DNA of 64,000 bases, from the NCBI RefSeq assembly GCF_964204645.1, contig NC_134034.1, positions 3,318,072 through 3,382,071 on the forward strand, read 5' to 3'. This document shows positions 13,609 through 37,697 of the stretch, in pieces. The translations under genes and the position numbers were made by a program. The first letter of the stretch is position 1; each line of letters starts with the position of its first letter. This DNA is from Tubulanus polymorphus (taxonomy: Eukaryota; Nemertea; Palaeonemertea; Tubulaniformes; Tubulanidae). The notes beneath the pieces were generated by a model that was not told the origin of the DNA, searched no databases, and saw only the letters and a program-made list of their open reading frames with translations.

Positions 13609-13721
13609 GGGGCCAGTTTTATAGACTGGTATTAACTTTAACCCGGGGCTAACTCAATTGAAAATGATTTAAGTAAGCCCCGGATTAAAGGTTATAACAG
13701 TCAACAATAAAACCGGCCCTG
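13609..13721. repeat. GGGCC-ended foldback MITE, single-unit form
   Basis: The terminal inverted repeats are GGCCAGTTTTATAGACTGG and its imperfect complement (CAGTCAACAATAAAACCGGCC). The core contains TTTAACCCGGGGCTAA...AAGCCCCGGATTAAAG. It is the same family as the three-unit copy at 39860-40152. Confidence 0.75.
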
Positions 13722-15183: not shown

Positions 15184-16890
15184 GTTATTATCAGAACGCG
15201 AGCGTCGCTGAATCTGACGTAGGACACGGCTGCTGCCGGGAAAGCGCGATATCTAAATCTCTGTATATTGCTGCGACACGCGTGGTAAGAATTGATGTTT
15301 TAGGAGGAATACAGAACTATGATTCGCGCAAATAGATGACACTGAAAAAATGCTAGATGTACTGCCAGTTGCTAGCGAATTGAACTGCAAGCATTTCCAG
15401 GTGTCTACAGTTACCCCTTACGTGGGAAATCATGGATCCAGGTGTCTACAGTGACGCTTGCAAAGATGAATATCACTCTACAACAAGAGTTTTACCTTCG
15501 ACACTGGCCTAAATAGGTATAGACCTTTCCAAGAAGAGGACCCACCGAAGCCTCGGGCGGATATCCCTCATAATGTATATATTCGTTGCGCGTAAGGTAA
15601 GGGGGTATAATATTGGTAACATTAAGATAACATCATTTTTCTAGAAATATATATCAATGCTGCAGTGCCAGAATGTTGATTGTGTACTTCGATTTAAGCA
15701 AAAATGTTTGTAAACTCGACCGCCGGTCACATATCTGTACTTCGATTTCCGATTTCAAAATCAAACCCCCTGTTTCGATCCTGGCAGGTGTGGTGGGTCT
15801 GTGAGGGACACTCAATCGAAAAATCAGACGAAATTTACCAACCGAATAAATAACAGGGACAATGACGAGAGAAATCCCACAATAATAATAACAAAGCCAA
15901 AATTGAAAAATTCTGTATCAGAATGATTGTGTTTGAGGAGCGACGTTTTGGCTAAAAACTGTTAGCCATCATCAGGTGTACTGAGACCAAAATAAAATAA
16001 CAGGATATTTATACATGAATATGACAAATGATAAACATTAAAGGATTAAGATTAAAGTAATTAAATGACAAAAACCGGAACAATAAGGAAGAAAACAAAG
16101 AAGGCAAACGACAAACTAAGGCGAAGTAATCAAAAAACAAATGCCCAGAGGGATCAAAGGCAGACAAACTAAGGGGTAATCAGACAAAAACAAAAGGCAA
16201 GAACATCAAAGGGATAATCAAGAACTGAGTGAGGGAGTGAGTTAGTAGAAGTGTCAAACGGAGAAAACAAGCTAACGGGATTAGAATAATAATAAAAATA
16301 ATAATTTTATTTTTTCCATTTTGAATTATAATAACCGTACAAAGTAATACAAATACCAAAATTCGAGATGGAGGGAAACATGAAGAAACCTGTTAAGGTT
16401 TATATGATATTCCTGCCACCCTCGTACACCCAATCACACTGTCTTTCACACCACATTCATACAGAAATTACTTAAGTGCCAGATGGCAGAGACTGGCAAA
16501 TATATAGATATAGATTAGAATAGAATAGATATAGAATAAAATAGATATTCATAGTCTAAACAGGGACAATCCCTATCTTTAGGTCAAAAAAGAAATGTTG
16601 AAAACTTTTCTATTTTGATTTAACCAGGTTCATATGAATGTTAATAATAGTAATATCTTCATTGTCAGAGAATATTCTCGTCAGTAAATCAGTAAACGCG
16701 ATTACATATCATGACCTGATTTGATAAACTATATTAATAAAGTGATCTGATATATTTTACTTTGTTCAGAAACTTTGATAAATTGATATAATATATTGAG
16801 GGGGTTTCTCATAAATTTGGCAACTTTCTATATGTACTGAGGGCAACATAGAATAACTTGGACTTCGTCCTCCATCTCATTTGAGATTAG
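15184..16890. other. Intergenic, Penelope-like debris and AT-rich DNA
   Basis: It contains a hammerhead-like motif near 15941-15976, an A-rich stretch (16040-16300) and several short AT microsatellites. No gene is supported. Confidence 0.45.
15941..15976 (-). ncRNA. Hammerhead-ribozyme-like motif, Penelope-type debris
   Basis: The minus strand reads CTGATGA, then a stem TGGCTAA / TTAGCCA, then AAACGTCG. The order is that of a hammerhead core (CUGANGA, stem II, GAAA), but the G of GAAA is replaced. Penelope-like elements are known to carry hammerheads of this kind. Stem III and the cleavage site are not evident, so this copy is probably inactive. Confidence 0.4.
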
Positions 16891-17289
16891 ACCTTCTCAA
16901 GAGTTAGTCTTCATACACCTGCACAGTCTGAGAAACTGTGTCACTTCATGTAACTCCCCCGTCTGAGTTCGTGGCCCACCTTGTTACGCCGGTCGGCAAA
17001 TACACCGAGATGGAATCGGCGGCAGCAGCCACAGACAATGAAAACACAACTCGTGGCATTTCGTGATACTTTACGTATCCTATTATTCGAGTACTAAACC
17101 GTACAACAAGTTGTCATGGAATGAACAGTCGACAGGTACCTGATCATATCGCGAATCAGACTGACCAGAGTACCACCTAGCGGCCAAAACACATTACAAT
17201 AGGTTAAACTTTATTCGCATATAAAATTACAAACCTTTATTTACATTTATATCTACGGAGTCCTAATGGATGAATGAAATGGTGTAATA

Positions 17290-17450
17290 TGAATATTTCT
17301 TTTTCGTGGGAACGAAATATAGTCGTTTCGTAGATTTTTTCGACGATTATGTTTTTCACGGGAACGAAATAACCTTTTCGTTGGAAAGAAATGATTTTCG
17401 CGGGAACGAAAAGATTTTCGTAGGAACGAAAAGATTATTTCGTGCTACGT
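17290..17450 (+). repeat. Degenerate GGGAACGAAAAGA minisatellite, left arm
   Basis: Units of about 20 bp contain GGGAACGAAA and TTTTCGTGG. It is mirrored in the right arm at about 33480-33630. Confidence 0.7.
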
Positions 17451-18553
17451 TTCGGGGAAAGTATAAATCTTTTCACCACGTCACTGTTGTGGAGATAGTT
17501 AGTAGTTTAGATAAATGTACGAAAGCTGGAGTTCATGGCCAGTGTTGTTATCGCCAGACAACCTGCGTTGATGCGTACGTCATACATAAACATAAATAGA
17601 GCTTATATAAATAAACAAGTCTGGAACTGACGTATGTGTCTACGTAGGTAAACCAAATATGGCGCGGCCATGAGCTCTGGTGAGTGCAAAAGGGTATTTA
17701 TAGATAATTGTGACGTGTGCAGATACGTCATCACCCATACATGGGTGGGAGGAATGTTGTGACGTATGAATACGTCACAATCCATGAATTCCAAGCCATG
17801 TGTGGAAGAGGGCCTGCACACGTTACTAAAGATAGAATAATATAAAAGGGTTTAAGAAAGCTTTAGAGAGAGGTTGGAGAGAAGAGGTTTTAGGGAGAGC
17901 TCCGGGGAATGATCTTGTATACATCTGGTAAGAGAAAATAAAAGAATAGATAACTTAAGAAATTGTTAAGTTATATCCGGGAGCCTTGTAAGAAAGTCAA
18001 GACCAAGGACTGTGATCCGGCCCAAGAGAGTGTCCCTCGCAACATCGTCGAGAGAAATCATTACCACAACACTGTTACATATACGCGACCACAACATCAC
18101 CTTCACGACTCAGTACACATACCTCTTTTTACGCGCATACTTATATCCTAATAGCCCCCTTAATCGCACAACGCTAAACTCTTAGGCAACGTCACGTATT
18201 TATTTTCTCAGAAAAGTCAACTTTTCAAGAGTGACGGCTCGGTATCCGACGTAGGCCTACTTTTTGTATCTGTACCTAGATACTGGGGTCTAACATATTT
18301 TAAACACCGGGCCCCTGTTTCGGTGTCCAAGTTTCCGCATCCATGTCAGTGCGCCCCGCACCCCGACCTGGGGCGCTGCGGGAAGATTTTTGGGGATGTA
18401 TGTTTTTCCGGACGCTCCCTCAAACGAAGTTTCAAAAACGAAAAGGAAATACTCATCGAATACGTAGCTCTTATTGTTCGTTTTGCGAGAAAGACACCGG
18501 CGATGACGAGCCAATAAGGAACTGAGATGCAACATATTCAACATTGTCCAATG

Positions 18554-18601
18554 TATCTACGAGCAATTATCTGAACATGTTCAGATAATTGCTCGTAGAT
18601 A
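18554..18601. repeat. Perfect 48-bp palindrome
   Basis: The two 24-bp halves are exact reverse complements centred at 18577/18578 and contain GAGCAATTATCTGAACA. It is flanked by direct repeats ATTGTCCAATGTA at 18543 and 18603. The right arm has unrelated sequence at the matching place. Confidence 0.9.
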
Positions 18602-18622
18602 TATTGTCCAATGTATAAACGA

Positions 18623-18863
18623 TATTCTAAAGAGGCACAGGTTCCGTTGATTGTTTACTCGGGTCGTCGCCGCCATTTTCCTGTAGTTTCGCTCGTCTGT
18701 AGAGCAATACCGAATGTTCTTTAAGCGCTACAAATGACGCTACGGCTAGTCCGATAATCAACGTGAAAAACACACCAGACATTTCGAAAAACGTCAACGG
18801 TTCAGTCTTCGATATTTCGTTTGACCAACCGTCGCGAACGTTACATGGAAACTGACGTTTCAT
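18623..18863 (-). pseudogene. Duplicated orphan last exon of the glutamate receptor
   Basis: This is a copy of receptor exon 11 (31574-31814), with the acceptor TTTTTTTCAG, the frame and the stop codon all intact. It encodes YMKRQFPCN through the last membrane helix to the C-terminus. Of the three differences I can count from the true exon, two are silent and one changes Ile789 to Lys inside the end of helix M4. No other receptor exons lie on the minus strand between here and 21.6 kb, so it cannot make a receptor on its own. It is either dead or a source for gene conversion or antisense transcription. Confidence 0.85.
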
Positions 18864-19477
18864 ATACCTGAAAAAAAGAATGAAAGGACTGAAGTCGAAC
18901 CGTTAGTTACTAAAAATCGAATTCAACGATTGTGACAAAATTCTTTTCCCTGATCCTGAACCTAATTCCACAGTTCGGAAACAAGATTGCTTGAGTTTTT
19001 ATACTCATACGAAATGAACAAAAATAGATTGAACTAGAGTGATTGGTTTTTCTTTAGAAAAGAACATACGTAATGTTACGTGTATCGAAACCGGTTTTTG
19101 CGTTAGACATAACGCACCATTCACCTGGAAGTGCCGCGTGTTACTCGCCGAACCAGCTGTTTGCGTTGTTTGCGCCGTTCCAATACGCAACATAAAACAT
19201 AGGTAGATATCCTCAAAACATAGCGCCGTTAGTCGTCTTTTTTGATGCTGGTTCCTATCGGATACACGGATATTCTTATCAAGGATAAGACGGTGGTTAA
19301 AACTGTGTGTAAACGATTAGCGATTCTGAGGTAAGAAATAGCACAATTTCGCCTTTAAATTACAGCGTGAATCATACGTAAACTGTTATACCATCGTCTG
19401 CGTGATATGTATGATTTTTTAATCGATACAAAATCAATTCTACGACCTGATTATGAATTTCAAGAATTCCCTTATCC

Positions 19478-19737
19478 CCCTCCCTCTATCTCTCTCTCTC
19501 TGTCTCATTCTCTCTCTTCCATTCATCGTCCCTTCATAATCTCTCTCCCTCTCCCTCTCCCTCTCCCTCTCCCTCTCCCTCTCCCTCTCCCTCCCCTCCC
19601 CCTCCCCCTCCCCTCCCCTCCCCCTCCCCCTCCCCTCCCCTCCCCTCCCTCTCCCTCTCTCCCTCTCCCTCTCCCTCCCTCCCTCCCTCCCTCTCTCCCT
19701 CCCTCCCTCCCTCCCTCCCTCTCTCTCTCTCTCGTCC
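19478..19737 (+). repeat. 260-bp polypyrimidine tract (CCCTCT)n
   Basis: An almost uninterrupted C/T strand is made of CTCCCT, CCCCTC and CCCT units. It is open in several frames only because it contains no purine-rich stops. A tract like this can form triplex DNA. Confidence 0.9.
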
Positions 19738-20539
19738 TCTATCATACCTCCAACCAACCTCTGATATCAGTACCTACCTCTTCCTCTCTCATCCCTCCGC
19801 CCATATCAGAATACCTCCCTTTCTCTAGCCTCCTTTCATACGTCCCTAGCTCTATCATACTTCCCTATCCCTTCCTCTCGCATTCGCTGTGCCATTTAAT
19901 GCGCTATGCCAGTAATTTAATCATATTGAATGAACGCTTTATGCCCTGGTTTTTAGTCAACAAAGCTTCGCAATGACTGACAACAGTCTGGTGTCTGTCT
20001 GGCTGCTAGTTCCCGGCTATATATAGCGTCTATATTAGGCTCTTCGCAGATCAAGGTACAGTTTTCATGTATGATATTTATATTCTAACGTCGTAAAGAT
20101 CGATAGTCACATTTACGCTCCAGTTTAAAGAACATGATGCGTCCATATGATATACACGGGTCCCGAAGTCGAAACTTATTAAAACTTCGAAAGTACTCTA
20201 GGGTTGTTCTTTATTGACTAGAACTCAGTGGATCTTTTAAACTGGACTTAAGTTATAAGACTATCGAACTGGCCCCAATTGATTTTAAGGCTGATCGAAA
20301 GGCCATCGAAATCTTTACCTAACTGATAATGTGCTCCATTTTCTGGAGTGAGTCAGTTGCAGTTTATGAGATACATTTCTAATCACTTCGGCAAATCTTT
20401 ATTATACCGCATCAAGAGCGTTAGCAGGATTTTCTTCTTTTCTTCGGGGGGGGGGGTACATTTTTTGAAAACGTTATTGAAAAATTAGCCTCGATTATAC
20501 GTAACGCTGTAGTAGCCTAACAATAAACACACCAGAAAA

Positions 20540-20927
20540 AAATGCCACCAGTGAAAATGACAGTAGGAAAAAATGCTACCGATGTTTTGATAAAATGCTA
20601 CAGATTATTTGCACACTTCATCTATCAACATTACATACAAGTCCGAAGTATAATTAATCATCTACTGATTATGAATTCAATTTTTTCAACTAGGAATAGA
20701 TAATTTTACAATTAGATAATTAAGTGTAATAAAACGAACATTCGTAACATACCACATAAAACAATTAAGGGATAAAAAGATTTAGAATATCAAACTAGAG
20801 AGCAATCAGATAGAAAGAGATCGTAAGATGATTGATAATCATCGTAGTTTAACTAAGATTTATGTATCGGAATAGCTTTATTTTTTCCTGGTGGCATTTT
20901 TCCTACTTTCCACTCATGTGGCATCGT
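20540..20927. repeat. ATGCCACC-AGTAGGAAAAA foldback element
   Basis: The left end (AAATGCCACCAGTG...AGTAGGAAAAAATGC) and the right end are imperfect reverse complements around an AT-rich interior. It is a MITE by structure. Confidence 0.55.
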
Positions 20928-21137
20928 GCGATTAGTACAGGGACCGCCCTAACTTAGTTGTGCAATCTGATAATCACACCCACGAGACGTTACAAACGAT
21001 TTCATAGTAAATAATCCATTTCATTCCATTTTCAATATTAGTCGAGCGATAAAACAGAATATGCGGCCGAGTAGCACTTTACACTTTTAAGCATCCATCG
21101 CCTGGTCTTTTGAGACATACGTACGTAGTCATATATA

Positions 21138-21538
21138 CGGAAGCGATAAGGGGCCTCGAGATGTCGCGTTCCAACTCGCCAAGTCGCCATATTTATGTCG
21201 ATATATCGCGTCAAGTCGACATGAATATGTCGACATATCGTGACGTTTTGACGACATATTTCGTTTTCACGACCATTTTCCTCGCGACAAGTCGACATAT
21301 TCATGACGACTTGAAACTCAGTCGTCATATCACTGGTGTCCTCATCTTACATTAAGACGTGTCTTCAAATGACGGCTTATCCCGTGGAAAATGGGCGAAA
21401 AAGCGAAATTTGTCGTGAAAACGTCACGATATGTCGCCATATTCATGTCGACTTGACGCGATATATCGCGATATATCGACATAATATGGCGACTTGTCGA
21501 GTTGGAACGCGACATCTCGAGGCCCCTTATCGCTTCCG
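21138..21538. mobile_element. CGGAAGCG MITE, copy 1 (TA flanks)
   Basis: A 401-bp element with long terminal inverted repeats beginning CGGAAGCGATAAGGGGCC, rich in TCGACATATCG palindromes and flanked by TA on both sides (21136-37 and 21539-40). The TA target suggests mobilisation by a Tc1/mariner-type transposase. It has no coding capacity. Its end lies only 116 bp upstream of the receptor start codon. Confidence 0.85.
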
Positions 21539-21654
21539 TACATATACACACTGTCACAGATGAAATGGGCATAATAAAACTCAATTAATGACTGTCATAT
21601 ATACGAAATGTATTTAACGCATTTCGTCCTGTTCTTTCGACAGAAGAAGAAGAA

Positions 21655-24600
21655 ATGGGAATGTTTCGTTACTCATCGATATGGGTAGTTCTATTCAGTT
21701 CCGGTTTTCTGATGACGGCCACCTCGGCGAAAACGATGCGAGTCGGTAAGTTTTTTAAAGCTTAGAAACCACATTAAATGTTTGATTCGAGTATTTTTCA
21801 TTGATATCGTAGACAACGACCGACAAAACTACGGAACTACTGAAGCGATAAGGGGCCTACTATGTCTAGTTTTCGCGTGCCGACTCAAAACGTCGCCATA
21901 ATTGTGTCGACATATCGTGACGTTTTGTACGGAAGCGATAAGGGGCCTCGAGATGTCGCTTTCCAACTCGACAAGTCGTCATATTTATGTCGATATATCG
22001 CGATATATCGCGTCAAGTCGACATGAATATGTCGATATATCGTGACGTTTTCACGACAAATTTCGCTTTTTGCCCATTTTCCACGGGACAAGCCGTCATT
22101 TGAAGACATGTCTAAATGCAAGATCAGGACACCAGTGATATGACGACTGAGTTGTAAGTCGTCATGAATATGTCGACTTGTCGCGAGGAAAGTGGTCGTG
22201 AAAACGAAATATGTCGTCAAAATGTCACGATATATCGACATATTCATGTCGACTTGACGCGATATATCGCGGTATGTCGACATAAATATGGCGACTTGTC
22301 GAGTTGGAACGCGACATCTCGAGGCCCCTTATCGCTTCCGTAGTTTTGACCACAAATTTTCCTTTGTCGTCATTTGACAAACGAAATGTAAGGCGAGGAC
22401 GCCAGAAATATGACGACTGAGTTTGTCGCGAGGAAAATGGTGGAGAAAACAAAATATGTCGTCAAAACGGCACAATACGCCGACATGATTATGTCGACTT
22501 GACGCGATATATCTCGATATGTCGACATGATCATGGTGGCTTATTGGGTTGCCACGCGACAGCTTAAGGCCCCTTATCGCTTCCGTTTATAAAACGCCTC
22601 GATTAATGCTGTTAAATCGATTTAACAAACGCATCTGATGTTGAATGTCTGTATGTCGATGGTGCAATAATGATATTTTCATAATATACTTTTTTCTGTT
22701 ATTGTGATATTGATGAGCTGTCAGAACGAGAGATTCCTCGGCTATCAGAAGAGTTTCAAATCAACTACGTACCCCAACAGCACCTATATTCCCAAATTCA
22801 GCCCGTCCTGTGGTACGGAAGCGATAAGGGATAAGGAGCGATAAGAAGCGATACTGTGGATCTCATTGCACAGGACTTTCCATGATCTATTACTATACAA
22901 GCTCCATAAAAAAATCCAAGTTTTTTCCAAAAGGCGCGTCGAATAAGTCATTTATAATGAATGTCCTTGACTTTCAGTCTGTATCGTCACCGATCATTTT
23001 CCGAATATGCAAGAACGAGTCGAGTATTTTTGGACCGCGATCGCGAGAGTTCAAGGTCAGGAATATAATGCGACCAAGCCGTCTATCGATTTTACATTCG
23101 TCGATGTCCGGTCAGAGATCAACGATGGAGTCGGTCTCAACGAAAAGCGTAAGTTCCATATTGGTATTTTATAAACATGCAGTGCTGTTTGATTCAGTAG
23201 TGTGCGGGCTACACTAGAAAGGCCGTAGTCCCGCCGTGGATCAATCCAATAGGGTTTCTATCTCGGGAAACCAAGAACCAAACGAGCAAGATATTTAGAT
23301 GAATAAAAATCTAATATCGATTTAGATGAATAAAAATCTAATATCTTCGATCACAACTGTGGCGAGTAAGGTCTCCGTGATAGTTCGTCAGGTGTCGCTA
23401 GTGGTTACTCGGTAGACCGCAATTCGAATCAGCCTTTCTTTTATACATGTATAAGTAAATCAATTATGAGTTAGATCTATACCAAACACTCAATAGGAAA
23501 GTCAATCTTTTTGAATTTTGAAGCCTCATTAAAATTTCAATGATAATAACATTCGTTAATATTAACGTTAAGTTAATGATGATAATTTAAACCCTAGAAG
23601 CCTAAAGCTTATAAACGGAATGAAATATGCTCATTCGCTCAAACGGCTCAAATGAATGAATGGGTTTTAAGATTTGATTTGAAAACAGATGGACTACATA
23701 TCCCAGGTATTTCTGATTACTTGGGCAGAGGCTGAATGCCCGGGATACCGCACAACTGGCCATAGTAGTGCATTTTAACTGTTTTAAAGAAGATACCCGC
23801 AGTGCTACTGTGGCAATCGAGGATTACGTATGGCAGGCGAGGATCCGCCAGGTGTCGCCAGTAGATAGTTGGTCGCCCGCGTTCGATTTCTGTTACATTT
23901 CAATTAAATTTGAATGAACTTTTCTCTTAAATGAATCATTTATTCATGAAAAATATACCGATCTGATTAGACGAATAAAAGTATTCTATATTTGGTGGGT
24001 GGCGCTGTAAGAATACATGGATTGGGGAGTCTAGAAAATCCAGTTTAAAGACCTACTGCTCATCACGCCATCTGGTGGGATAGCTAGTTTTGCGGGTTCC
24101 CCGTGTATTCTTATCATTTCCATTACTATAGCGTATCGGTGACGTGCTACCCGAATGGATCAAAAACAACCTACCGATTCTTGACTCATCGGAAGACGTT
24201 TTTGCGACATTGTTTAATGCGTCGAAAGGAATTTTCGTGTATTTTCAATAAATCAAGTTTTGATATTTTCAGTGAAAAAGGTACTGCAAGCAAACTACGA
24301 CGCCGCGATCGGACCGCCGGTAGAATATTTTCAAAGATACATAGGAACGGAATATTTCGTCGTTGGCGACGGGCTACAAGCTAAAGCGTGTCCGTCGTAC
24401 GATGGAGTACACAACGTTCTGCCGACTTTGGATCAAGCGATGAGTCTCGTTTTCCCTTTCATTAAATCTACAGAGGACAAGCTTTGTTATGATTTCATAA
24501 TCATCACGCATAATACAGGTATAATGATGGTATAATTGCTGATCTGCGTAACAAATGTGTCCCTGACAGATGCCTGCACTTCGACAGTAAAACGCCATAA

Positions 24601-27600
24601 ACTGCCCACTTTAGTATTTGTAAAGAGGAATGAAACTTTAAATTAGATTTTCTTAAGTTTTTTTTTATATTTTTTATTTATTTTTCAAAATTTTGGAAGT
24701 TCGAACCCCGTACATTACCGTAGTGTCCTCGGGCAAGACACTTATCCTCACCACCTCTCTCCACCCAGGAGTAAATGGGTACCTGGTCTGATAGATGACT
24801 CATGAGCCCCCAGTAGTTGCTCGGATGTTATCCCCCCCCCCCCCCCCAGAGAGAGGTGACTGATGCATAGAATAGAGTTATAGGCTAAGGTTATTTGAAC
24901 TGGACTCCGTTTGGGATACCTGCGCTATATTAATGACTAATATTATCATTATCATAATCATTATCATCATTATTATTATAATTATTATTATTATAATCAT
25001 TAAGAATAAAATTGAAGTCTAAGTTCAACCCATTGGGCATTTAAGGTGTTAACATGGTAAAATACCATCAACTGTCCACTAGTTTTTATAAAGATGAGAC
25101 CGGTAGAATTCAATTTCAAGTTCAAAGCGTCCAAAAGAAATTCCTAAGCAAAAACTGATGCCACAGAATAAAATCACATAAACAAAAACTGATAAATTAC
25201 ACACGTCAAATGTGTCGAAAGGTTGAATTACTATATGAACTGTACTGTAGTATCACTATGAGGCCACACAATCAATACCGGTAGCTTGTTTCTTATCAGT
25301 TTCATTTTTCTCATTAAAAGATAAATTTTCGTCACTTTTGGAATTTGGAATGAGGCTTTTCATTCCTCTCATTTTTTTTAAAGGGAGGTTAAAATAAAAA
25401 CCTCGTCACGATTCCAGGCACAGGCTGATGAGAAACAACGCGGGTATTTCTCTGCGTGGCCTAAAACCGTTGAACGGACGGATGTATCACGTTTCAGGTG
25501 AGCTCGACGATTTTCTCCACGCGTTCGTCTCGTACTCGGACCAGTTTCGCGGTTACGAGAAGCTCTGTTTCAAGTACTACCCGCTCGTCACGGGCTGGAC
25601 GAAAGGGGCGACGATGTATGAAAATATCGACCCTGAAACGTTCGATCAAGTGAAAACTGCGCGAACTTTCGGAGTGTCGCATATCATCGTATTCTCGAGA
25701 ATGCCCAACGCTTACCATCCGTTCGAGGCGGTAGGTATATGAGATATCTGAAATCCGGGATGGGTTGCAACATACTAACAAAAGCGAAGCCAGGATTTTG
25801 AAAGGGCCGTTCTTAGATTATAAAAAGGGGACTTTTGGCATGTTCTATATTTTTGAAAAGCAAGCACCGTAGTTGCGACTCCCGTCTGGGGGCCTCACCC
25901 AGAAAATCTATTAAAAACTATTCCCGAAGCATCTAGTGAATATTTTACTCACACTCAAACTTGGGGGTCATTGGCATCGTATTGGGTTCCAATTACTGAT
26001 ACTACGGTCAGGGCCCAGTTTCACAAAAAAGTTTAACTCTTTAATCGATTAAATTTCTTCATTAAAATTCAAATTCTTAAATCGATTTAGGCCTTAATCC
26101 TTTTTGTGAAACTGGGCCAAGGACATCCGTTTTGAAATGTTACAATTTGAATTAAAAGATTATTCTTAAATAAAATCATGAAGGGCATTTTCTGAAAAGG
26201 GGAGTTCGCTCGAACGGACGAACTCCCCCCTGGCTACGGGCCTGTATTGTTGAAAGCCCAGCTGTGTGATTTTCTTAGTGTGTGAATGTGCCGTTGTCCA
26301 TGCAGCCCGTTTGATACTTTTTCAGGCAACTAATTTTGACATGAACTCGTATCTTTATCGCTGGCTTTATCTGACATATGTGAGTACTGCTTCTTTGTAA
26401 ATAATGAAAATTATTCAACCTTTGATTCTTCTCGGAACATCACTTCGACGATTGAGTTATGCCTATATAGATTTTGTGGCTGTAAATAAAAATATGAATG
26501 CGCACTTCGTCGATGTGCAATACGTCATGAATATTGGGTTTTCAAAATAAGAATTGCGATGGGGTACCGGCACTCACACCAGATGGCGTAACAATAGATT
26601 CAGTTAAACCATGGACTCTAAAAACGAATTTCGTTAAAACGTAGTGACAACTAATACATTTTCAATGAACTTTGAACTGGATTTTAAGGCGCCCAAATGG
26701 AAATGTTTTCAAACAAGTCATGACATAGATATGAGATTAACGTTCCTTATGAGTTTATGTTATGGTTTGACTGAAAATTGACAAAAACAATAAAAAAAAA
26801 GTACATTCAAATTCAAAAGAAATGTAGAAGAAATTGAGGTGCGGTAACTGAGTTACTACTAGCGAACCTGGTGGATCCTCGCCTGCCATACGTTGAATCC
26901 TCGATTGCCACAGTAGCGGCGCGGATACCCCATTGTGAATACTGAAGCTGGCTAGACTGGTTGCCGGTCGATTCAATTCAATTGTATAATTCAAGTCAAA
27001 TGCGTACATGTGTTATTTTACCAAGGCGTCACTTAACTTTCAAGTTAATTTTCTTGTTTACGTATCTTTTAGGAAAACGTTCCTTACAAGTCTTTATCGG
27101 CGGCCCACGTCCCCCAAACGAACCCATCGCTGTCATTCCTCGATATGTTCAACGATAATCTAGTGAAGGCGTATAACCTGGCCGGATTACAAACGGACCA
27201 TAAGAGTCGGGATTTTGGATTGTTCGACACGATTCTTACTTTATATGAATTTGCCGGCAGACAAATAAGAAGAAAATCGGAAAAGTTTTTTGTATGCGAA
27301 AATTTCACTGTTCCATGTTATGATATATCGATCGAAAGATTCCGTCAAACAATTCCGTCAAATTACAGTTATCTTCAATGACAACCTTCTAATTCTCAGT
27401 GACTTCAATGATTCAGTAAAATTATAATTAGTTAGCAATGACGGCATTATCATTTCCAATTACTTCAACGATTTGGTAAAAATTATGGTTGACCATCTCA
27501 TACTCGCTGATTTCAGTAAAATTATGATTAGTAACTGATTTTCAATGAGATTAATCTGAGGTATTTCGATTCTAGGATGCTAAAGTCGAAGTTAATGGTT

Positions 27601-30600
27601 TCAGCGGACGATTTAGCTTCTCGCTGATGAACTGTCGCGAGGCGCCCGCCGTTAAATATTGCGAAACGGACGCGAATGAAAATAGAACTCAATGTGAAAT
27701 GACTGATTTAGAGGTAAGAAATGCTTTCCGACCAGTGCAGCAACGATTGATGATGGAAAGTTGGGGAAGACCAAAATTCCACTTTAGCCAAAGTTAACTT
27801 TTTTCTTTACGATTCAGGACCCAGTTCCACAGTTCTGAATTAAGTTCAACTCTAGGGTTAACTTAATTGAAAATCAGCTAACTTTAACTCAGAGTTAACT
27901 CTAACTCACAACTGTGGAACTGTTTCTAGTACGTTCATGACTACAATCAAAGCTCGTTATAACGCCAGTCCCGGGACCGTCAAAATGTTGGCGGTATAAC
28001 GAAATGACGATCGTGAGAGTTGAAATAGTATACACAACATGACTGTTAACCAAATCCAGAATTAGACATCAGTTGATCTTAATCTAGGAAAGGGTAAAAA
28101 ATGATACAGTAGATGTGTGATACTGCTAACCACATGACTGTATCGATTCTTAAACAAAAGACTAGAAACGTCGTTGACGAAAGATCGTTGGCGGTTTAAC
28201 GAATGATTTTACTATGAGTTTGAATAGGACTGTTCTAGGATTTCGTTGGCGTTGTGATGGAGGGTGAGAGGTGAAACAACAGGAGCTATTTACCTGTATA
28301 TGGTCAATGTTCTCCGTTTTCTTAATGATTTCGGTGGTTCTGTAAAGATCATTACTCTTGACATATTTTTCGTTTCTTTTTTCATAGTACATGGATTGGA
28401 ATGTACTCGACCAGGCAAACCCGATCAAAATTCTCCCAGATGATGGCGTGAAAGTATTTAGTGCTAACCTCGGGCGGATTCTGATAAGACTGGTTAGTAT
28501 TTGAATTCAAATTTTGACCCGGATATTCGAACACAACCTCCCAGACGCAGCTTTAAATAAGGCTTTTATAAAGCACCACGTTATATCATATCCTATCACA
28601 CACCACACCACACCACACCACACCACACCACACCACACCACACCACACCACACCACACCATATACTATCATATCATTTCATTTCATATTCATTTTCTGAA
28701 TAATTTACATGAATGTTTAAAGAATATGTTAGGCTTACAAAAGGAATGTAATTTATTTGTTTTACACACAGATGTAAAATAACAGCAGGGCAGCCAAAAA
28801 AAGAAAAGCTCGTAGTGGTATTAAGCACCCTAAATGGCAAAAAAGGAAAAACACACACACATATTCATTTAAGACAATTTGGTAATCTTTTTATATCACA
28901 CGACCCAAACATCTTAAGGAAGCTAGCAGTATTTAGCAAAAAAGGCACGTAGCGCTGTGCACACACGTCTTAATTGCGCGTGTAATGCTATGTACGAACT
29001 TTATAGAAGAAAAAACTGTTACTCTATATTGTAAATGTAACTGGAGTGGTACCTGCATTTGTATAACTGTATTATGAATCCTGTGCTCGAAAAAATTGTA
29101 TAATTTCTGGAGCAATAAATTAAATCTGAATCTGAATCTTCACACATAATAAATGCATAGCACACACACGCATACGTACACGATATCAGATTTTGAACAA
29201 TGTTCTCTTATTAGATTCATAGATAGAACCGAGATTTGTAGATAGTTTTAAGTTAAGATTTAAGGAATTCCGTTTATCGTCTTTATACAGCTGCCGCCGT
29301 TTTTTCTTTTGAACAGGAGCCACCGTTCTTTATCAGATCAGAAAGCGGCCACGTGAGCGGCATATTATTCGATTTACTCGAAATATACAAGATTTCTATC
29401 GACGTCGCGTTTGAATACTTTGAATATTCGTTAGGTGAAGATCTTTTGGATAGATTACAAGGTTTTGTGAGTATTTTCCCACGTCAAAACACCCGGTTTT
29501 GCGGCAGGTGAAATGCCACCAGAATCCGCTAGATGTCGCTTGGGTACGGGACGATATACCTTAAGTTCTTGTGTTTCTAAGTCTTTTCTATTTTGTACAT
29601 TTAAACATTTTAACATTTAAATACATAATTCAAGCAAAACAATATACCGGTACTGATAGCTATGGAATTAGGAGAAGCCCAATTGACTTTTAAACGGTCG
29701 TAATCCCTCGTCCTTACTCCCACCGTGGACATGGTTCCCTACCATGATAAGAATGTGGTCAACGTCTTACTAGTAAAAACGTCGTATTATCTTATCTTTC
29801 TTCAAAAATCGAACAGTAATTCTACAGCAATTCTAATTTTTAGGGGGAGGTTGCGGCTGGAGGCTTTTCCATCGATTTAGAACGGGAGACCATCGTCGAT
29901 TTCAGCGACCCGATCTATCCGGCGTCGCTGCACCTGGTATCGAAGCTGCCCGCAGTGGAAAAGAATCGCTGGCAATTTCTGAAACCGTTCGTCAGCACTT
30001 TATGGTTGGTCGTTCTGGCGACGATACTCGTCATAAGTATTTTGCTGTCGTTGTTGACGTTTATAGACTACACAACCGACACGATCTCGTTGGTGGACAG
30101 TTTCTACTTCACAGTGGCTCGACTCAGTAGCGGCAGTTCGGAGACTAATCCTAACGCCATTCCCAGTAGGATCCTCGTCGCCGTTGTAATGTTTTTCGGC
30201 ATGGCGCTGTCGGCAGCCTATACGGCCAATATGACGGCGTTCTTGAGACTGAGAGCCGATGACCAACCGATAACGAGTCTCAGCGAATTGATCGAAAGGG
30301 GCGAGGGGAATTTCGGCGTCATCGGTTACACCGAAGTTGCAAAAATATTGTCGAAATCGCAGAAATTTCCCGATATTATTGTTTGGAATATAATACGCCG
30401 AACAGGTAACGTACTGCCGGATTTAGAAACGGCCGTTGAAAGGATCGTCAACGAGAATTTCATACTGATCACCGACACGTTGACGGCGCGGTACGCGGTA
30501 GCGCAAAGATGTGATTTAATCGAGCACGAACTGAAGCAGTTGTACGGATTACGATTCGCGCTCGCTTTGCCGAAGGGTGCGTTAGTAAAACGACCGATCG

Positions 30601-31814
30601 ACGCATTGATCGCCAGCATAAGGGAAAGCGGTGAACAAAAGAAAGTGGAGGATAAGTAAGTTACTTCAGTAAAAACACTATCCGCTATCGGTTTAACATT
30701 ATTGGTGTTGATATTTTTTTCAACGTTCGAGAGTATCAATATAATCAATAATTGTTGCGAAATCCCCTACGTATAAGGAGCCTGATTCAATTTCTCGGAA
30801 AGATAATTTAGGGTTTTCTGCCAATTCGGTAAGAATACTTATTATTAATCCCATGCATAATCATTTTCATATATATTGTTTTTCACGCTTTTTTCGGTCG
30901 GTGAAATTCGCCTATCATTCCGACTACTGATCATCAAAGCATCGCAGAAATATAAAAATGTCCGACCGCGAAGAACCCTGTACGCAACACTGCCCTTCGA
31001 AGTAATTTCGCGAAAAAATGGCCGATTACACCGATTATAATGTACGAATGATCACGCGTATAAATAGCCCATTCCCTACATACTCTACAAAACTCAGACG
31101 ACATTGAGATTTCTCATTTACGAGTTTAAGAAAGAGGAAGTCTCCGAGTATATCCGAATGCGGGTATACAGAAAACCGGCCGCGTAATCGGTGCGTTGCA
31201 GCTACATTTTTTGGGATAATGATTCGTGCAGTAGTTGTGCATCTAGTTTCGTGAAGAATATAAAGCTAAAACGATTCGAATAGCTGTCATTATTGATAAC
31301 ATAAACGACACTAAATGTCAACTGAGCTGAACATTCGAGTTTTACTTGTCCTGAAACTTGAGCTGCGAGCTAGTTCCAATTCTTGCGAATTTGGGGAAAA
31401 CTCTAGTTGATTCTATTTTTGTTCATTTCGTATGAGTATAAAAACTCAAGCAATCATGTTTCCGAAATGTGGAATTGGGTTCAGGATCAGGGAAAAGAAT
31501 TTTGTCACAATCGTTGAATTCGATTTTTAGTAACTAACTGTTCGACTAACAGTCCTTTCGTTCTTTTTTTCAGGTATATGAAACGTCAGTTTCCATGTAA
31601 CGTTCGCGACGGTTGGTCAAACGAAATATCGAAGACTGAACCGTTGACGTTTTTCGAAATGTCTGGCGTGTTTTTCACGTTGATTATCGGACTAGCCGTA
31701 GCGTCATTTGTAGCGCTTATAGAACATTCGGTATTGCTGTACAGACGAGCGAAACTACAGGAAAATGGCGGCGACGACCCGAGTAAACAATCAACGGAAC
31801 CTGTGCCTCTTTAG
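21655..31814 (+). CDS. Ionotropic glutamate receptor, 11 exons, 819 aa
   Basis: The exons are 21655-21745, 22978-23148, 24273-24518, 25498-25730, 26326-26379, 27073-27291, 27576-27713, 28388-28492, 29317-29466, 29844-30655 and 31574-31814 (2460 nt, every phase consistent). In order the protein has a signal peptide, an amino-terminal domain (about 30-385, with VNGFSGRFSF), S1, M1 (about 518-541), a pore loop, M3 with AAYTANMTAFL (canonical SYTANLAAF), S2, and M4 (770-790). The ligand Arg is kept (R483 in LERETIVDFSDP). An Asp sits in FILITDTL as in NMDA/delta types, rather than the Glu of AMPA types. The pore Q/R/N position reads as Ser or Leu (ARLSSGS). It is a cation channel subunit gated by an amino acid. 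Its subfamily is uncertain: NMDA-like or a lineage-specific class. Confidence 0.9.
21840..22585. mobile_element. CGGAAGCG MITE, older copy interrupted by a younger one
   Basis: The ends TGAAGCGATAAGGGGCC and GGCCCCTTATCGCTTCCG belong to the same family, but with more mutations. The interior is split by copy 2. It lies in intron 1 of the receptor. Confidence 0.75.
21930..22340. mobile_element. CGGAAGCG MITE, copy 2, nested
   Basis: A 411-bp copy with near-perfect ends and TA on both sides (21928-29 and 22341-42). It has inserted into the older copy at the motif CGTTTTG-TA, with the interior inverted relative to copy 1. A stub of the same terminus (TACGGAAGCGATAAGGG) recurs at 22814. Confidence 0.85.
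24690..24850 (+). repeat. SINE-like segment with poly-C end
   Basis: A B-box-like AGTTCGAACCC (24698-24708) is followed by GGGCAAGACACTTATCC and CTCTCCACCCAGGAGTAAATG. This resembles conserved 3' parts of metazoan SINEs, from memory of the motif only. It lies in receptor intron 3 and ends near a C17 run. Confidence 0.5.
26012..26118. repeat. GGCCCAGTTTCAC foldback
   Basis: Terminal GGGCCCAGTTTCACAAAAA pairs with TTTTTGTGAAACTGGGCC around a TTAATCGATTAA-type core. It is a short MITE in receptor intron 4. Confidence 0.7.
27826..27928. repeat. CAGTTCCACAGTT foldback
   Basis: CCAGTTCCACAGTT is paired with AACTGTGGAACTG around AGTTAAC-rich palindromes, in receptor intron 7. It is related in style to the GGGCC-ended families. 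Confidence 0.65.
28598..28661 (+). repeat. CACAC/CACCA pentanucleotide microsatellite
   Basis: About twelve near-perfect 5-bp units (ACCAC). Confidence 0.9.
29020..29140 (+). repeat. Retroposon 3' tail with (GAATCT)n end
   Basis: AT-rich untranslated-type sequence with an AATAAATTAAA stretch ends in tandem TCTGAA units. This is how several LINE and SINE families terminate. It lies in receptor intron 8. Confidence 0.4.
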
Positions 31815-31962
31815 AATATCGTTTATACATTGGACAATGTGGCCAGGATTATCGATTGTATTCCCTTCATACAAGCGTGTGTCCGGATGTATTATTGTGA
31901 ATATGTTGCATCTCAGTTCCTTATTGGCTCGTCTTCGCCGGTGTCTTTTTGGTGAAACAAAC

Positions 31963-31968
31963 AATAAA
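31963..31968 (+). terminator. AATAAA created at a MITE insertion junction
   Basis: The hexamer begins in host DNA (AATAA, including the TAA target copy) and its last A is the first base of the MITE. It lies 149 bp after the receptor stop codon. The empty site in the left arm reads AATAAG. Use as a real poly(A) signal is inferred. Confidence 0.55.
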
Positions 31969-32432
31969 GCCTAGCGCACATCGACACTGCGATTGGAGAC
32001 AACTAGTTGCCAGGCAGTTTTCGGCGCATGAGAGCAACTGGCTGGATACAATCAGTTGCTCGAATTTGTCGATGTGAGCGAGCTTACGACTGGTTAGCGT
32101 CCATCTATCTCCAGTTCCACCCAGTTGCTCATGTTCTACTTTTGAGCAACTAGTTGTACTCAGTTGCTCTCATATCCGTCGATGTGAGCGCTCCATAATC
32201 AACAACACATGGTTGTAACTGACTAAAACAAAGCTATTTGTCACGTGACTTGTGATGCCCTCAAGAATATTTGCTAGACCACATCTCAGTTGCTGTCGAT
32301 GTGTGCGCTATGGACCTAGCGACCGGCATGAGCCACGCAGTTGCTGGTTTTTACTAAATTTTCGATGTGCGCGGGGTACTCGCTGACTAGCAACTAGTTG
32401 TCTCCAGTCGCTTTGTCGATGTGCGCTAGGCT
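31968..32432. mobile_element. PIF/Harbinger-like MITE with TAA target duplication
   Basis: The element is 465 bp with terminal repeats AGCCTAGCGCACATCGACA extending imperfectly over about 44 bp, plus internal CAACTAGTTG and CAGTTGCTC repeats. TAA flanks both ends (31965-67 and 32433-35). The left arm of the inverted duplication preserves the empty site with a single TAA. A 3-bp TWA-type duplication is characteristic of the PIF/Harbinger superfamily. Confidence 0.85.
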
Positions 32433-33479
32433 TAAGAGCTACGTATTCGATGTGTATTTCCTTTTCTTTTTTGTAACTTCGTTTTAGGGAGCGTCCGGAA
32501 AAACGTACAACCCCAAAAATCACCGAATCTTCCCGCAACGCCCCAGGTCGAGGTGCTGGGCGCACTGACATGGATGCGGATACTTGGACGCCGAAACAGG
32601 GGCCTGGTGTTTAAAATATGTTAGATCCCAGTATCTAGGTACAGATACGAAAATTAGGCCTACGTCGGATACCGAGCCGTCACTCTTGAAAAGTTGACTT
32701 TTCTGGGAAAATAAATACGTGACGTTGCCTAAGAGTTTAGCGTTGTGCGATTAAGGGGGCTATTAGGATATAAGTATGCGCGCAATAAGAGGTATGTGTA
32801 CTGAGTCTTGAAGGTGATGTTGTGGTCGCGTATATGTAATAGTGTTGTGGTAATGATTTCTCTCGACGATGTTGACGAGGAGGGACACTCTCTTGGGCCG
32901 GATCACAGTCCTTGGTCTTGACTTTCTTACTAGGCTCCCGGATGTAACTTAACAATTTCTTAAGTTATCTATTCGTTTATTTTCTCTTACCAGATGTATA
33001 CAAGATCATTCCCCGTAGCTCTCCCTAAAACCTCTTCTCTCCAGCCTCTCTCTAAAGCTTTCTTAAACCCTTTTATATTATTTTATATTTATTAACGTGT
33101 GCAGGCCCTCTTCCACACATGGCCTGGAATTCATGGATTGTGACGTATTCATACGTCACAACATTTTTTCCCATCCATGTATGGTGATGACGTATCTGCA
33201 CACGTCACAATTATCTATAAATACCCTTTTGCACTCACCAGATTTCATGGCCGCGCCATATTAGGTTTACATACGTAGAGACATACGTCAGTTCCAGACT
33301 TGTTTACTTGTATAACTTCTATTTATGTTTATGTATGACGTACGCATCAACGCAGGTTGTCTGGCAATAACAACACTGGCCATGAACTCCAGCTTCCGTA
33401 CATTTATCTAAACTACTAACTATCTCCACAACAGTGACGTGGTGAAAAGATTTATACTTTCCTCGAAACATAGTTCGTT

Positions 33480-33630
33480 CCCACGAAATAATCTTTTCGT
33501 TCCTACGTAAAATCTTTTCGTTCCCGCGAAAATCATTTCTTTCCAACGAAAAGGTTATTTCGTTCCCATGAAAAACAATTCATTCCGTCGAAAAAATCTA
33601 CGAAACGACTATATTTCGTTCCCACGAAAA
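33480..33630 (-). repeat. Degenerate GGGAACGAAAAGA minisatellite, right arm
   Basis: This is the reverse-complement counterpart of the array at 17290-17450, with several unit-level differences. Confidence 0.65.
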
Positions 33631-33850
33631 AGAAATATTCATATTACACCATTTCATTCATCCATTAGGACTCCGTAGATATAGATGTAAATAAAGGTTT
33701 TTAATTTTATATGCGAATAAAGTTTAACCCATTGTAATGTGTATTGGCCGCTAGGTGGTACTCTAGCCAGTCTGATTCGCGATATGATCTGGACGACCAG
33801 GTACTGTCGATTGTTCATTCCATGACGACTTGTTGTACGGTTTAGTACTC

Positions 33851-33852
<2 letters not shown>

Positions 33853-33882
<30 letters not shown>
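33853..33882. repeat. AT dinucleotide microsatellite
   Basis: About 15 AT units expanded in the right arm. The left arm has the unexpanded sequence at the equivalent place. Confidence 0.85.
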
Positions 33883-33884
<2 letters not shown>

Positions 33885-34059
33885 GTAAAGTATCGCGAAA
33901 TGCCACGAGTTGTGTTTTCATTGTCTGTGGCTGCTGCCACCGATTCCATCTCGGTGTATTTGCCGACCGGCGTAACAAGGTGGGCCACGATCTCAGACGG
34001 CGGGAGAGTTACATGAAGTGACACAGTTTCTCAGACTGTGCAGGTATGAAAGACTGACT

Positions 34060-34262
34060 CTTGAGAAGGTCGACACAGATTCAGATGTGGAATCAGATTC
34101 TGAGACTGAGGAGGGCCGGAACCCGGGAATCCGATGTAGACTGTTATAGGAAGAGCGAAGGGCAGGGCGCGGCAATTGATGAAAAAGTTCGAGATATAAA
34201 AAAGTCGTTCCCATGGCAACGCCATTGATTTTTATTTATGGAAAACGTGGATTTTTATAACG
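34060..34262 (+). pseudogene. Degenerate copy of the zinc-finger gene 3' end
   Basis: It translates as an acidic VDTDSDVESDSETEEG stretch. About 100 bp on come TGGCAACGCCAT and GGAAAACGTGGATTTTTAT, which parallel the acidic tail and the terminal TGGCAACACTAT...GGGAAAATATGGATTTTCAT of the zinc-finger gene at 37620-37690. Frames are broken. It looks like the tail of a lost neighbouring zinc-finger copy, lying just outside the right arm. Confidence 0.5.
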
Positions 34263-34966
34263 TTTAGCTACGAGAATATCCAAATCAGGCAGGGCATCCA
34301 TCTCTTAACGACATGTTAATCAAGTCTGGAAAATGGCAAAAGCGGGATGCCGGATCTTCACAATAACCTCCTTGAGATGGATATTTTGTACTTCTCCTGC
34401 CGCGACACGGATATTCCCCGCTTTGGTTCTTCACGGCCCGTCAAGGGGATTCAAGCTCACTTTAGTAAACCCACCGTTCCCCGAAGTGAACTCGGTTGAA
34501 GTTTGTCCGGTTCAGCGATACTGGATCGCCCCAGTCAAGCGAGCTGTTTGTACCGTTCAAATGTGTTTTTTTTCTCTCCTGTCATTTGTCAGTGTCTTTT
34601 TGTGTTTATATTTTATTGCCATGTCTGTCCCGTGTAAATTATACGGACACAATCTATAAATTTGGAATTGAATTGAATTGGTTTGGATACGGATGCCTTA
34701 TTTGGATCTTCTCGGAGCCACCCATTTCTCAGGCAATCAATAAACGATTTTTATTTCCTCTCCTCCGTAGCCATAAAATACATTTTCATCCGGATTATCC
34801 GGATTCATATCCGGACGTGATGGAGTCGGGCCCTATTGGTTATACATTATCATCAACCGCTAAAGTCAGAAAAGGTAAAAAAGGAAATATTCATAATTCA
34901 CCGCCGGCCACACACCGCGAGGCCCGAGCCAGTGACGTGGAGCCTGGCTATAGTATATAATTTGTG
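34263..34966. other. Intergenic, possible retroposon 3' end
   Basis: A T-rich stretch ends in GGAATTGAATTGAATTGG (34662-34680), typical of retroposon tails with short tandem ends. No gene is supported. Confidence 0.35.
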
Positions 34967-35078
34967 TCACAGGGACCTGACTATACTATATAAAAAGACT
35001 TTTAAAAAAGTCTTTTTATATATAGAACCTTGTACCTAGGATACTGGGGTCAAATTTTTTTTTGTCAGGTCCCTGTGA
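34967..35078. mobile_element. 112-bp foldback with inner hairpin
   Basis: The termini TCACAGGGACCTGAC and GTCAGGTCCCTGTGA are exact reverse complements. Inside is a hairpin, AAAAAGACTTTT / AAAAGTCTTTTT. It is a very small non-autonomous element. Confidence 0.8.
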
Positions 35079-35264
35079 TTTGTTTGTATATCGTCACATA
35101 TGCCTCTATCTTAGACTTAGTCTGATGAATACCAGTCGTTGTTACCGGTTCCTATTTGCCCTATCTGAGATTGTGTTTATTTTTCTTAGGTCCGTTATTA
35201 ACTAATTTTCGTACGAGCGCGATGAGTTTACCACAGAGCCAATCAACTGTCCACCAGGGGGCGA

Positions 35265-37697
35265 ATGATGTATATGGATTCAGACCTACAGCGGCACGTA
35301 TCGGTGGATCGACCCGATGAACATCAGTTTAAATGTGCTTACTGCGACGAAACTTTCCGTACGGAAGAAACGTTAAACGCGCACGAGTCCGCGCTGCATC
35401 TTAAAGTGCAGCGCGAGATCGGCGACCAGGGTTTCGGTTCGAACGCCAATCCATACCAGCGGACATCGGTCGCGCATCCCGCCCTACGTTCGTTTAAATG
35501 CGATCGCTGCGCGAAAATATTCATTTCGAAAGAAACGTTAGAAAAGCACGCGACACGCGTACACTCGAAGTCGCTCCAGTGCGCCGTCTGTCGGAAGCGT
35601 TTTACCGAAAAATCCTATTTGAAAAGCCATATGAAAATCGTACACGAAGGCGTCCGCGCGCATAAGTGTGAAATCTGTCGGCAGACGTTCGGACAAAAGA
35701 GCAATTTGATCGTACACGTTTCGGCCGTCCACCAGGGGGCGAAGCCGTACCGGTGCAAGATTTGTAAACGGAATTTCTATCGGAAATTAGCCCTGGATAA
35801 CCACGTAAGGAGCGTACACAACGGCGCGCGTCCGTTTAAATGTGACCGCTGCGATCAAACGTTTAGTTCAAAACGAAACCTGAATAAGCACGCGTCGGCC
35901 GTTCATTTAAAATTGAAACCGCACCGGTGCGCCATCTGCGAGAAACGTTTCGCGGCGGAACCGTCGTTGAAAAGGCATTTGAAGGTCGTGCACAGAGGCG
36001 ACCGGCCGCATAGATGCGAAACCTGTCAGCGGATGTTCGGATTTAAAAGCAGTCTAGATCGGCACATGGAATCCATCCACAAGGTAGTGACAACGCACGA
36101 GTGCGATATTTGCGAAAAGAGTTTCAAATCGAAGAAAAACCTGAAGATTCACGTAATCAACGCTCACGACGGCGTTGGTATTTCGAAATGTTATCACTGT
36201 GATAAAATTTTCCGTCACAAAAATGATTTGGACAAGCACACGTCGGCGGTTCATTTGAAATTGAAGCCGCACCGGTGTGCCATCTGTCAGAGAAGTTTCG
36301 CGTATGAATCGTCGTTGAAAAGGCACGCGCAGATTATGCACAGTCGCGATCGACCGAGCGAAAACGGTCAGCGGAAATTCGAACCGACGAGTAGTCTAGA
36401 ACGGCTCGCGATTTCCGTCCACCAGGGGGCGAAACAGTGCGAGGCGGAAGAGAGTACCAGTTCGATCAGTGGCGTACCGCGGCAGGAGATACTCGCGCAG
36501 TCGAACGGCAGTCGGCGTCCGTTTAAATGCGATCACCGCGATAAAACGTACAGTACAAAAAATAACTTGAGTAACCACACGTTTGGCGTTCACCCGAAAT
36601 TAAAGCCGCACCAGTGCGCCATCTGTCTGAAACGTTTCATAGTTAAATCGTATTTGAGGACGCATATCGAGATCGTACACGAAGGCGCTCGGCCGTACGC
36701 GTGTAAAATCTGCCGCCAGACGTTCGGAGAAAGGAGTAATTTGAATCGGCACGTTTCGGCCGTCCACCAGGGGGCGAAGCCGTACCGGTGCGAGATTTGC
36801 GAGAAGAATTTCTCGCTGAAATTAACGCTGAAGAAACACGTAAAGCGCGTACACGACGGCGCGCGTCCGTTCAAGTGCGACCGCTGCGACAAAACGTTCA
36901 ATTCGAAAGGCGAGTTAAACAAGCACACGTCGGCAGTCCATTTGAAATTAAGGCCGCACCAGTGCGCCATCTGTCGGAAGCATTTCGGACTAAAAGCGGA
37001 TATGACGAGACACGTGGAGAACGTGCATAAACGAGTGTGGCCCCATGAATGCGAAATCTGTCGGCAGAGCTTCGCGCGAGAGAGCTATTTGAATACGCAC
37101 ATGCTCGCAATTCATACTGCGGGCGACGTGTCCGATTGTAAAATGTGCGAGAAATCGTTCGGTAGCAAAGAGGATCTGACCGCACACATGTTTCGGGAAC
37201 ACCTTAAAGAGGGCGCCGCGCGGAGATTTTGGTGTACGTTCTGTTTGAAAAATTTCTCGCAAAAGGCTTCGCTGACTCGCCACGTGAAGAGCGCTCATCG
37301 GCTCGAAGATCGATCGGAGAAGGAGGTGAAGATGGTTTCTGAAACTGAGGAGGAGACAAAGAAGGTGACTACAGACGACTGTGAGGAAGAGGTGGAGCTG
37401 ACTGACGCAAAGACGGTTTCTGCGACTGGTGATGTGATGACCGACTCCGAGACCGACGAGCAGAAAAATGAGGTTAAGACCGATTCTGAGACGGATGTAG
37501 TGAATACCGACGCTAAGAAGGTCGTCGCAGATTCAGAGGTCGGATCAGATTCTGATCAGGAAACAACAACAGAATCTGAGGCAGACGACTTCGACGAGGA
37601 AGAAAATGAAAATGCAATTAGATATGACAAATCGTTTGCGTGGCAACACTATGCAGTATATTCTGGGAAAATATGGATTTTCATTGAACATGAATAA
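35265..37697 (+). CDS. C2H2 zinc-finger protein, 19 intact fingers plus 2 decayed (810 aa)
   Basis: This is probably a nuclear DNA-binding protein. C2H2 fingers run from about residue 23 to 690 at a period of 28-29 residues. Linkers are mostly HxGA(K/R)PxxC or HLKLKPHxC instead of the usual TGEKP. Fingers fall into recurring types (FKCDRCDKTF, HRCAICxKRF, ECEICRQxF, YRCKICKxNF), showing expansion by multi-finger duplication. Finger 12 has lost both Cys (ENGQRKFE) and finger 13 has lost its second Cys (CDHRDKTY). The C-terminal 120 residues are very acidic, rich in SETE and DSE repeats, possibly an activation or chromatin-interaction region. No KRAB, BTB or SCAN domain is visible. The frame is one exon. 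Upstream DNA holds a second short frame from 35222 with another VHQGA remnant. AATAAA overlaps the stop codon. Confidence 0.9.
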   Translation: MMYMDSDLQRHVSVDRPDEHQFKCAYCDETFRTEETLNAHESALHLKVQREIGDQGFGSNANPYQRTSVAHPALRSFKCDRCAKIFISKETLEKHATRVHSKSLQCAVCRKRFTEKSYLKSHMKIVHEGVRAHKCEICRQTFGQKSNLIVHVSAVHQGAKPYRCKICKRNFYRKLALDNHVRSVHNGARPFKCDRCDQTFSSKRNLNKHASAVHLKLKPHRCAICEKRFAAEPSLKRHLKVVHRGDRPHRCETCQRMFGFKSSLDRHMESIHKVVTTHECDICEKSFKSKKNLKIHVINAHDGVGISKCYHCDKIFRHKNDLDKHTSAVHLKLKPHRCAICQRSFAYESSLKRHAQIMHSRDRPSENGQRKFEPTSSLERLAISVHQGAKQCEAEESTSSISGVPRQEILAQSNGSRRPFKCDHRDKTYSTKNNLSNHTFGVHPKLKPHQCAICLKRFIVKSYLRTHIEIVHEGARPYACKICRQTFGERSNLNRHVSAVHQGAKPYRCEICEKNFSLKLTLKKHVKRVHDGARPFKCDRCDKTFNSKGELNKHTSAVHLKLRPHQCAICRKHFGLKADMTRHVENVHKRVWPHECEICRQSFARESYLNTHMLAIHTAGDVSDCKMCEKSFGSKEDLTAHMFREHLKEGAARRFWCTFCLKNFSQKASLTRHVKSAHRLEDRSEKEVKMVSETEEETKKVTTDDCEEEVELTDAKTVSATGDVMTDSETDEQKNEVKTDSETDVVNTDAKKVVADSEVGSDSDQETTTESEADDFDEEENENAIRYDKSFAWQHYAVYSGKIWIFIEHE

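Follow-up and report, generated by a model that had tools for sequence, protein, structure and literature searches.

An inverted copy of the 3′ end of a predicted glutamate receptor gene adjoins the presumed promoter of that gene in Tubulanus polymorphus

The window, that is, the whole stretch of DNA analyzed here, covers 64,000 nucleotides of Tubulanus polymorphus (NC_134034.1, positions 3,318,072 to 3,382,071). It lies on a contig designated C10 below, in a genome of 267.8 Mb in 77 contigs, and is free of any N. Its main features are shown in Table 1. The central one is a receptor gene, and a tblastn search of the window with the 819-residue model placed all of its exons and found a second, left copy of the last one; the remaining matches had E values of at least 2.4. 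The predicted protein scored for Pfam Lig_chan over residues 521-780 (72.2 bits, cut-off 30.8, E 5.2e-20) and above the cut-off for SBP_bac_3; its amino-terminal domain was not recognized by Pfam. The PDB matches were mostly kainate and AMPA receptors, and the last exon could be aligned, weakly (E 0.003), with M4 of GluA2, with which it has VALIE in common. As judged from its predicted protein, the gene encodes an ionotropic glutamate receptor whose ligand-gated channel domain includes M4.

Table 1. Coordinates of the features of the locus, in positions of the window.
Feature	Position	Strand	Remarks
Left arm: inverted copy of the receptor last-intron end, last exon, and 3′ flank	16890-19040	-	
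Dispersed repeat of about 0.6 kb, in both arms	17483-18097 (right: 32820-33442)	.	LTR-like ends, by eye
Perfect 48-bp palindrome in the left arm, replacing a paralogue-like 3′UTR segment	18554-18601	.	
Orphan last-exon copy	18627-18867	-	241 bp; Ile to Lys in the M4 helix
Conserved receptor 5′ region (candidate promoter and 5′UTR exon)	19041-20101	+	Adjoins the left arm
Receptor coding region, 11 exons	21655-31814	+	819-aa model; spliced by hand, checked by tblastn
Receptor exons 1-6	21655-21745, 22978-23148, 24273-24518, 25498-25730, 26326-26379, 27073-27291	+	
Receptor exons 7-11	27576-27713, 28388-28492, 29317-29466, 29844-30655, 31574-31814	+	
Receptor last coding exon (M4 helix and C terminus)	31574-31814	+	241 bp
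Right arm: last-intron end, last exon in use, and 3′ flank	31400-34071	+	
465-bp insertion, right arm only	31968-32432	.	Matching inverted ends; TAA target duplication

Around coding exon 1 of the receptor, a repeat occurs in inverted copies (21125-21542, 21926-22353, and 22407-22591), the first pair being 93% identical over 429 columns. Downstream of the right arm, an 823-aa open frame (35226-37697, +) contains many C2H2-like zinc-finger motifs, as judged by eye. To the left of the left arm, an open frame at 13990-15252 (-) encodes a rhodopsin-type receptor (Pfam 7tm_1, E 9.9e-13). At least 98 other places in the genome match this gene (99 of 599 candidates were scored, and all 99 matched, itself included); many members of the family stand in tandem arrays, and several nearby on C10 carry an in-frame TGA. 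None of the rhodopsin-type copies among the matches listed was located just downstream of a glutamate-receptor paralogue.

The receptor belongs to a family with many copies in this genome. Channel exons with 79-100% identity were present at no fewer than eight places on C10 and C3, the window's own included, and more distant channel exons also occur. The search for the last exon revealed at least ten copies with 59-100% identity, plus two distant ones. Two of these ten lacked a listed channel exon of their own: the one in the left arm, and another at C10:3276942-3277127 (locus C10:3275442-3278627). The latter has no acceptor and shows a short deletion, and a LINE-like open frame, recognized by eye, lies upstream of it on the opposite strand. 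The neighboring paralogues C10:3291359 and C10:3285930 have a common in-frame TAG in the last exon, so that their C termini are shorter than that of the gene in the window; the acceptor of C10:3291359 is CAAG instead of CAGG.

The two arms were compared by BLAST (16000-20999 against 30000-35999). They matched in inverted orientation in two pieces, 16890-18473 with 34071-32433 (92.3% over 1643 columns) and 18471-19040 with 31967-31400 (90.5% over 576 columns). A third match, direct, short, and weak (about 120 columns, 70.8%), was left out of the analysis. Base-by-base alignment joined the two pieces into a single continuous inverted duplication, with 12,359 bp between the arms. The preliminary description, made from the letters of the window, had reported the last exon and its 3′ flank as present twice, inverted and about 12 kb apart, with three differences in 241 exon bases; both statements proved correct, the second one exactly (31574-31814 against 18867-18627). 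Its figure of 2.25 kb for the 3′ flank holds for the right arm (31815-34071) but not for the left, where the flank measures 1737 bp, because the right arm carries the 465-bp insertion and further small insertions. The sequence common to both arms begins on the inner side with some 174 bp from the end of the last receptor intron, continues through the last coding exon, and extends roughly 1.7 kb into the 3′ flank. As a background for such structures, one inverted pair of 300 bp or more was seen in 65 short loci (241,390 bases), a sample in which some loci overlap and from which 11 loci of the duplication region itself were omitted.

Outside the exon, the arms differed at 90 of 1846 aligned sites (4.9%, JC 0.050), a count that omits the 465-bp insertion and a replaced 3′UTR segment in which 35 of 59 sites differ. 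This segment, 59-60 bp long (31839-31897 on the right), is wholly different between the arms. The differences were clumped, with a variance/mean of 1.78 per 100 sites, and the longest identical run was 106 bp (permutation mean, 110.7). One end of the 465-bp insertion matches about 30 or more places in the genome, among the matches listed. At its left border, at 31968, the insertion creates an AATAAA (31963-31968) in the receptor 3′ region, where the left arm reads AATAAG. The 0.6-kb dispersed repeat is present in both arms and is therefore older than the duplication. By a vote of six other copies of the repeat, its 25 inter-arm differences comprise 10 that arose on the left, 14 that arose on the right, and one that is ambiguous; both arms have drifted. 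Chimeric reads can yield inverted copies, and a fold-back chimera or a misplaced haplotype would then explain the whole structure as an artefact of assembly. We consider this extremely improbable, in view of the 4.9% divergence, the insertion and the palindrome that are each private to one arm, the four distinct flanks, and the gap-free sequence.

The left exon copy retains its CAG acceptor, its frame, and its stop. When the window was searched by tblastn with the entire receptor model at E values up to 10, the left side yielded no other receptor exon, in agreement with the earlier account of an intact last exon without upstream exons. An alignment of the ten last-exon copies allowed us to polarize the three differences. 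At the codon that reads Ile on the right and Lys on the left, the paralogues carry ATA or GTA; thus, the Lys is new in the left copy, where it replaces the Ile of the VALIE motif in helix M4. The left copy has the base of the paralogues at site 31739; at site 31667 the paralogues carry T, G, or C, and the nearest two carry T. By the simplest reading, both synonymous changes therefore arose on the right. The right copy also resembles the paralogues in the 3′UTR where the left one has the palindrome, the 46-bp core of which gave no other reported match in the genome with up to three mismatches. The comparison with paralogues thus marks the left copy as the damaged one, and with a predicted Lys at a conserved helix position it does not look like a spare helix that is being maintained.

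The exon is less different between the arms than its surroundings are (3/241 against 90/1846, Fisher P 0.007), and on the left lineage it took one change where 3.9-5.9 were expected (P 0.10 to 0.019). These are the strongest numbers against a neutrally decaying left copy, and they leave room for constraint or for conversion. Gene conversion between the arms, suggested earlier for the last membrane helix, would keep the exon homogeneous and would account for the Fisher result. Against it, three or fewer exon differences have a probability of about 0.16 if only the right copy is constrained, and some stretch of 241 bp equally poor in differences appeared in 18.9% of permutations. The non-coding part of the arms also holds an identical run of similar length (98 bp), and in the exon neither the left-derived change to Lys nor the right-derived changes were homogenized. 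We regard conversion as unlikely. The intact left frame is unremarkable, since 31-83% of copies evolved neutrally in simulation kept an open frame, according to the indel rate assumed.

On its inner side, the left arm adjoins a region that is conserved upstream of receptor genes. When the 430 bases next to the inner edge of this arm were searched against the genome, the block 19045-19440 gave three matches among three candidates, namely itself and two sites upstream of paralogues. Identity was 66% over 396 bases at C10:4373028 and 72% over about 100 bases at C10:3302928, and both sites are oriented toward their genes as the block is toward the receptor. The two paralogues also have the donor-like GGTAAGAA that occurs at 19330 within this block, and the block would represent the promoter together with a 5′UTR exon. 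A second conserved block at 19870-20101 is partly repetitive, because about 80 bp of it also occur at 13531-13611. Between the two blocks, 19470-19740 is a long pyrimidine-rich simple repeat. The matches with the paralogues end at 19045-19049, just inside the left arm. Because the left arm adjoins this region, the arms would enclose a unit that runs from the presumed promoter to within the last intron. This juxtaposition, as read from the paralogue alignments, is what is new here.

Near the inner end of the left arm itself, 19006-19024 contains a 13-bp exact match, CATACGAAATGAA, to the upstream region of one paralogue (L059 1450-1469). It beat 200 of 200 shuffles; among 9116 background segments, 3, 233, and 88 scored as high under three scorings. 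This match may be due to chance or to an older link.

The position of the left arm also bears on its possible expression. Since the arm adjoins a candidate promoter and has kept an acceptor and a stop, divergent transcription, for example, might yield a short peptide with M4 from the left exon, or else a regulatory RNA or an antisense RNA such as the preliminary description had proposed; with no upstream receptor exon on that strand, we hold such a product to be very unlikely.

The same geometry raises the possibility of an invertible gene with two ends. Recombination between the arms would flip the unit from the promoter to the last intron, and the gene would be complete either way, with Ile or Lys in M4. 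An acceptor, an open last exon, and a stop are present in both arms; on the inner side, one arm stops just short of the conserved 5′ region and the other stops within the last intron; and the exon differs less than the flanks do. A human inversion between arms of 7 kb with 94% average identity has been described (PMC3961182), so divergence alone would not prevent inversion here. On the other side, the arms measure about 2.1 kb, with the longest identical run given above, the left 3′UTR is disrupted, the Lys falls in a conserved M4 motif, and a single orientation was seen in the one assembly. The positive evidence for an invertible gene is its geometry, and inversion of the whole gene by the arms, which the preliminary description had proposed, is feasible in geometry yet improbable.

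The best explanation in our judgement, with a probability of roughly 0.77, is a single inverted segmental duplication, which may be the scar of a small inversion by staggered breaks and which left an orphan exon that decays neutrally. A single past event would have produced an inverted copy of the 3′ end of the receptor, comprising the end of the last intron, the last exon, and about 1.7 kb of flank. The result would be two copies around the gene unit, the right one used by the gene and the left one directly upstream of the presumed promoter. The right copy would be under constraint, and the left one, devoid of upstream exons, would drift as an orphan terminal exon. In favor of this explanation, the arms are colinear across the intron, the exon, the 3′ flank, and the common dispersed repeat, and the genome holds a second partial copy of the last exon, the one at C10:3276942.

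Two routes could lead to this arrangement. In the first, a gene unit originally on the minus strand would have been inverted by staggered breaks, carrying along a copy of its last exon; such breaks would leave the segment at one breakpoint doubled and inverted, with a truncated copy of the gene at one of the two ends. In the second, a template switch during repair would have inserted an inverted copy of the segment upstream of a gene that lay on the plus strand. As expected of a staggered-break scar, the same segment stands inverted at both ends of the enclosed stretch, with a truncated copy at one end and the complete gene using the other. Both routes would fit equally well.

The flanks outside the arms were also compared with paralogous loci. 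About 600 bases of each, set against the upstream regions of two paralogues, gave scores like those of shuffled sequence (10 to 37 of 60 shuffles were as high). BLAST with three 10-kb stretches gave one match on the side of the left flank, between 15684-15855 and sequence 2.7 kb downstream of the C10:4.389 Mb paralogue. Its distance and its orientation are close to those predicted if the left flank were a native 3′ flank. The match is uninformative on the ancestral order, because the matching stretch is a dispersed repeat with at least 40 copies.

Other origins were considered and set aside. A processed (retro) copy would lack the intron and would stop at the poly(A) site, whereas the left arm has kept about 174 bp of intron sequence and continues for some 1.7 kb into the 3′ flank. 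A head-to-head pair of genes, the left of which has lost its body, is opposed by the lack of any left receptor exon and by the adjoining region, which is common to the 5′ regions of two paralogues; a pair in which the left body was deleted without a trace keeps a small probability. With regard to a foldback transposon or transposon ends, the scored candidates (40 of 206 and 40 of 349) included further copies of the internal 0.6-kb repeat, of the paralogous exons, and of the right-arm insertion but of no other part of the arms, which points against this origin.

Partial duplicates occur in expanding receptor families. The copy described here resembles them in that its genome contains eight or more paralogues, as well as a further last-exon copy for which no channel exon was listed; it differs from them in being inverted and in lying at the presumed promoter of its own parent. 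A literature search aimed at this case found nothing relevant. In Drosophila, inversion breakpoints made by staggered breaks carry inverted duplications and truncated gene copies (PMC5080602). D. subobscura O4, O8, and other inversions likewise have an inverted duplicated segment at the ends of the enclosed stretch, and a truncated copy gathers mutations while a functional one stands at the other end; in T. polymorphus, in contrast, the arms enclose a single gene unit of 12 kb and not a large segment of a chromosome. Among human inversions, PMC3961182 describes HsInv0389, with FLNA and EMD, where inverted arms likewise surround one or few genes, and three cases in which the exons in the two arms are identical, so that the exchange should not alter the mRNA. 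The arms found here are shorter than these and are not known to take part in an inversion polymorphism.

The duplication is real, ordinary in kind, and well preserved. It shows cleanly what a small inverted duplication leaves behind, namely a truncated terminal exon next to the parent gene, with paralogues that tell the decaying copy from the one in use. If both orientations were to exist in nature, the receptor would be a rare case of a gene that can reverse its reading direction and stay unbroken, and each flip would swap the M4 helix (Ile or Lys), the 3′UTR, and the genomic neighborhood.
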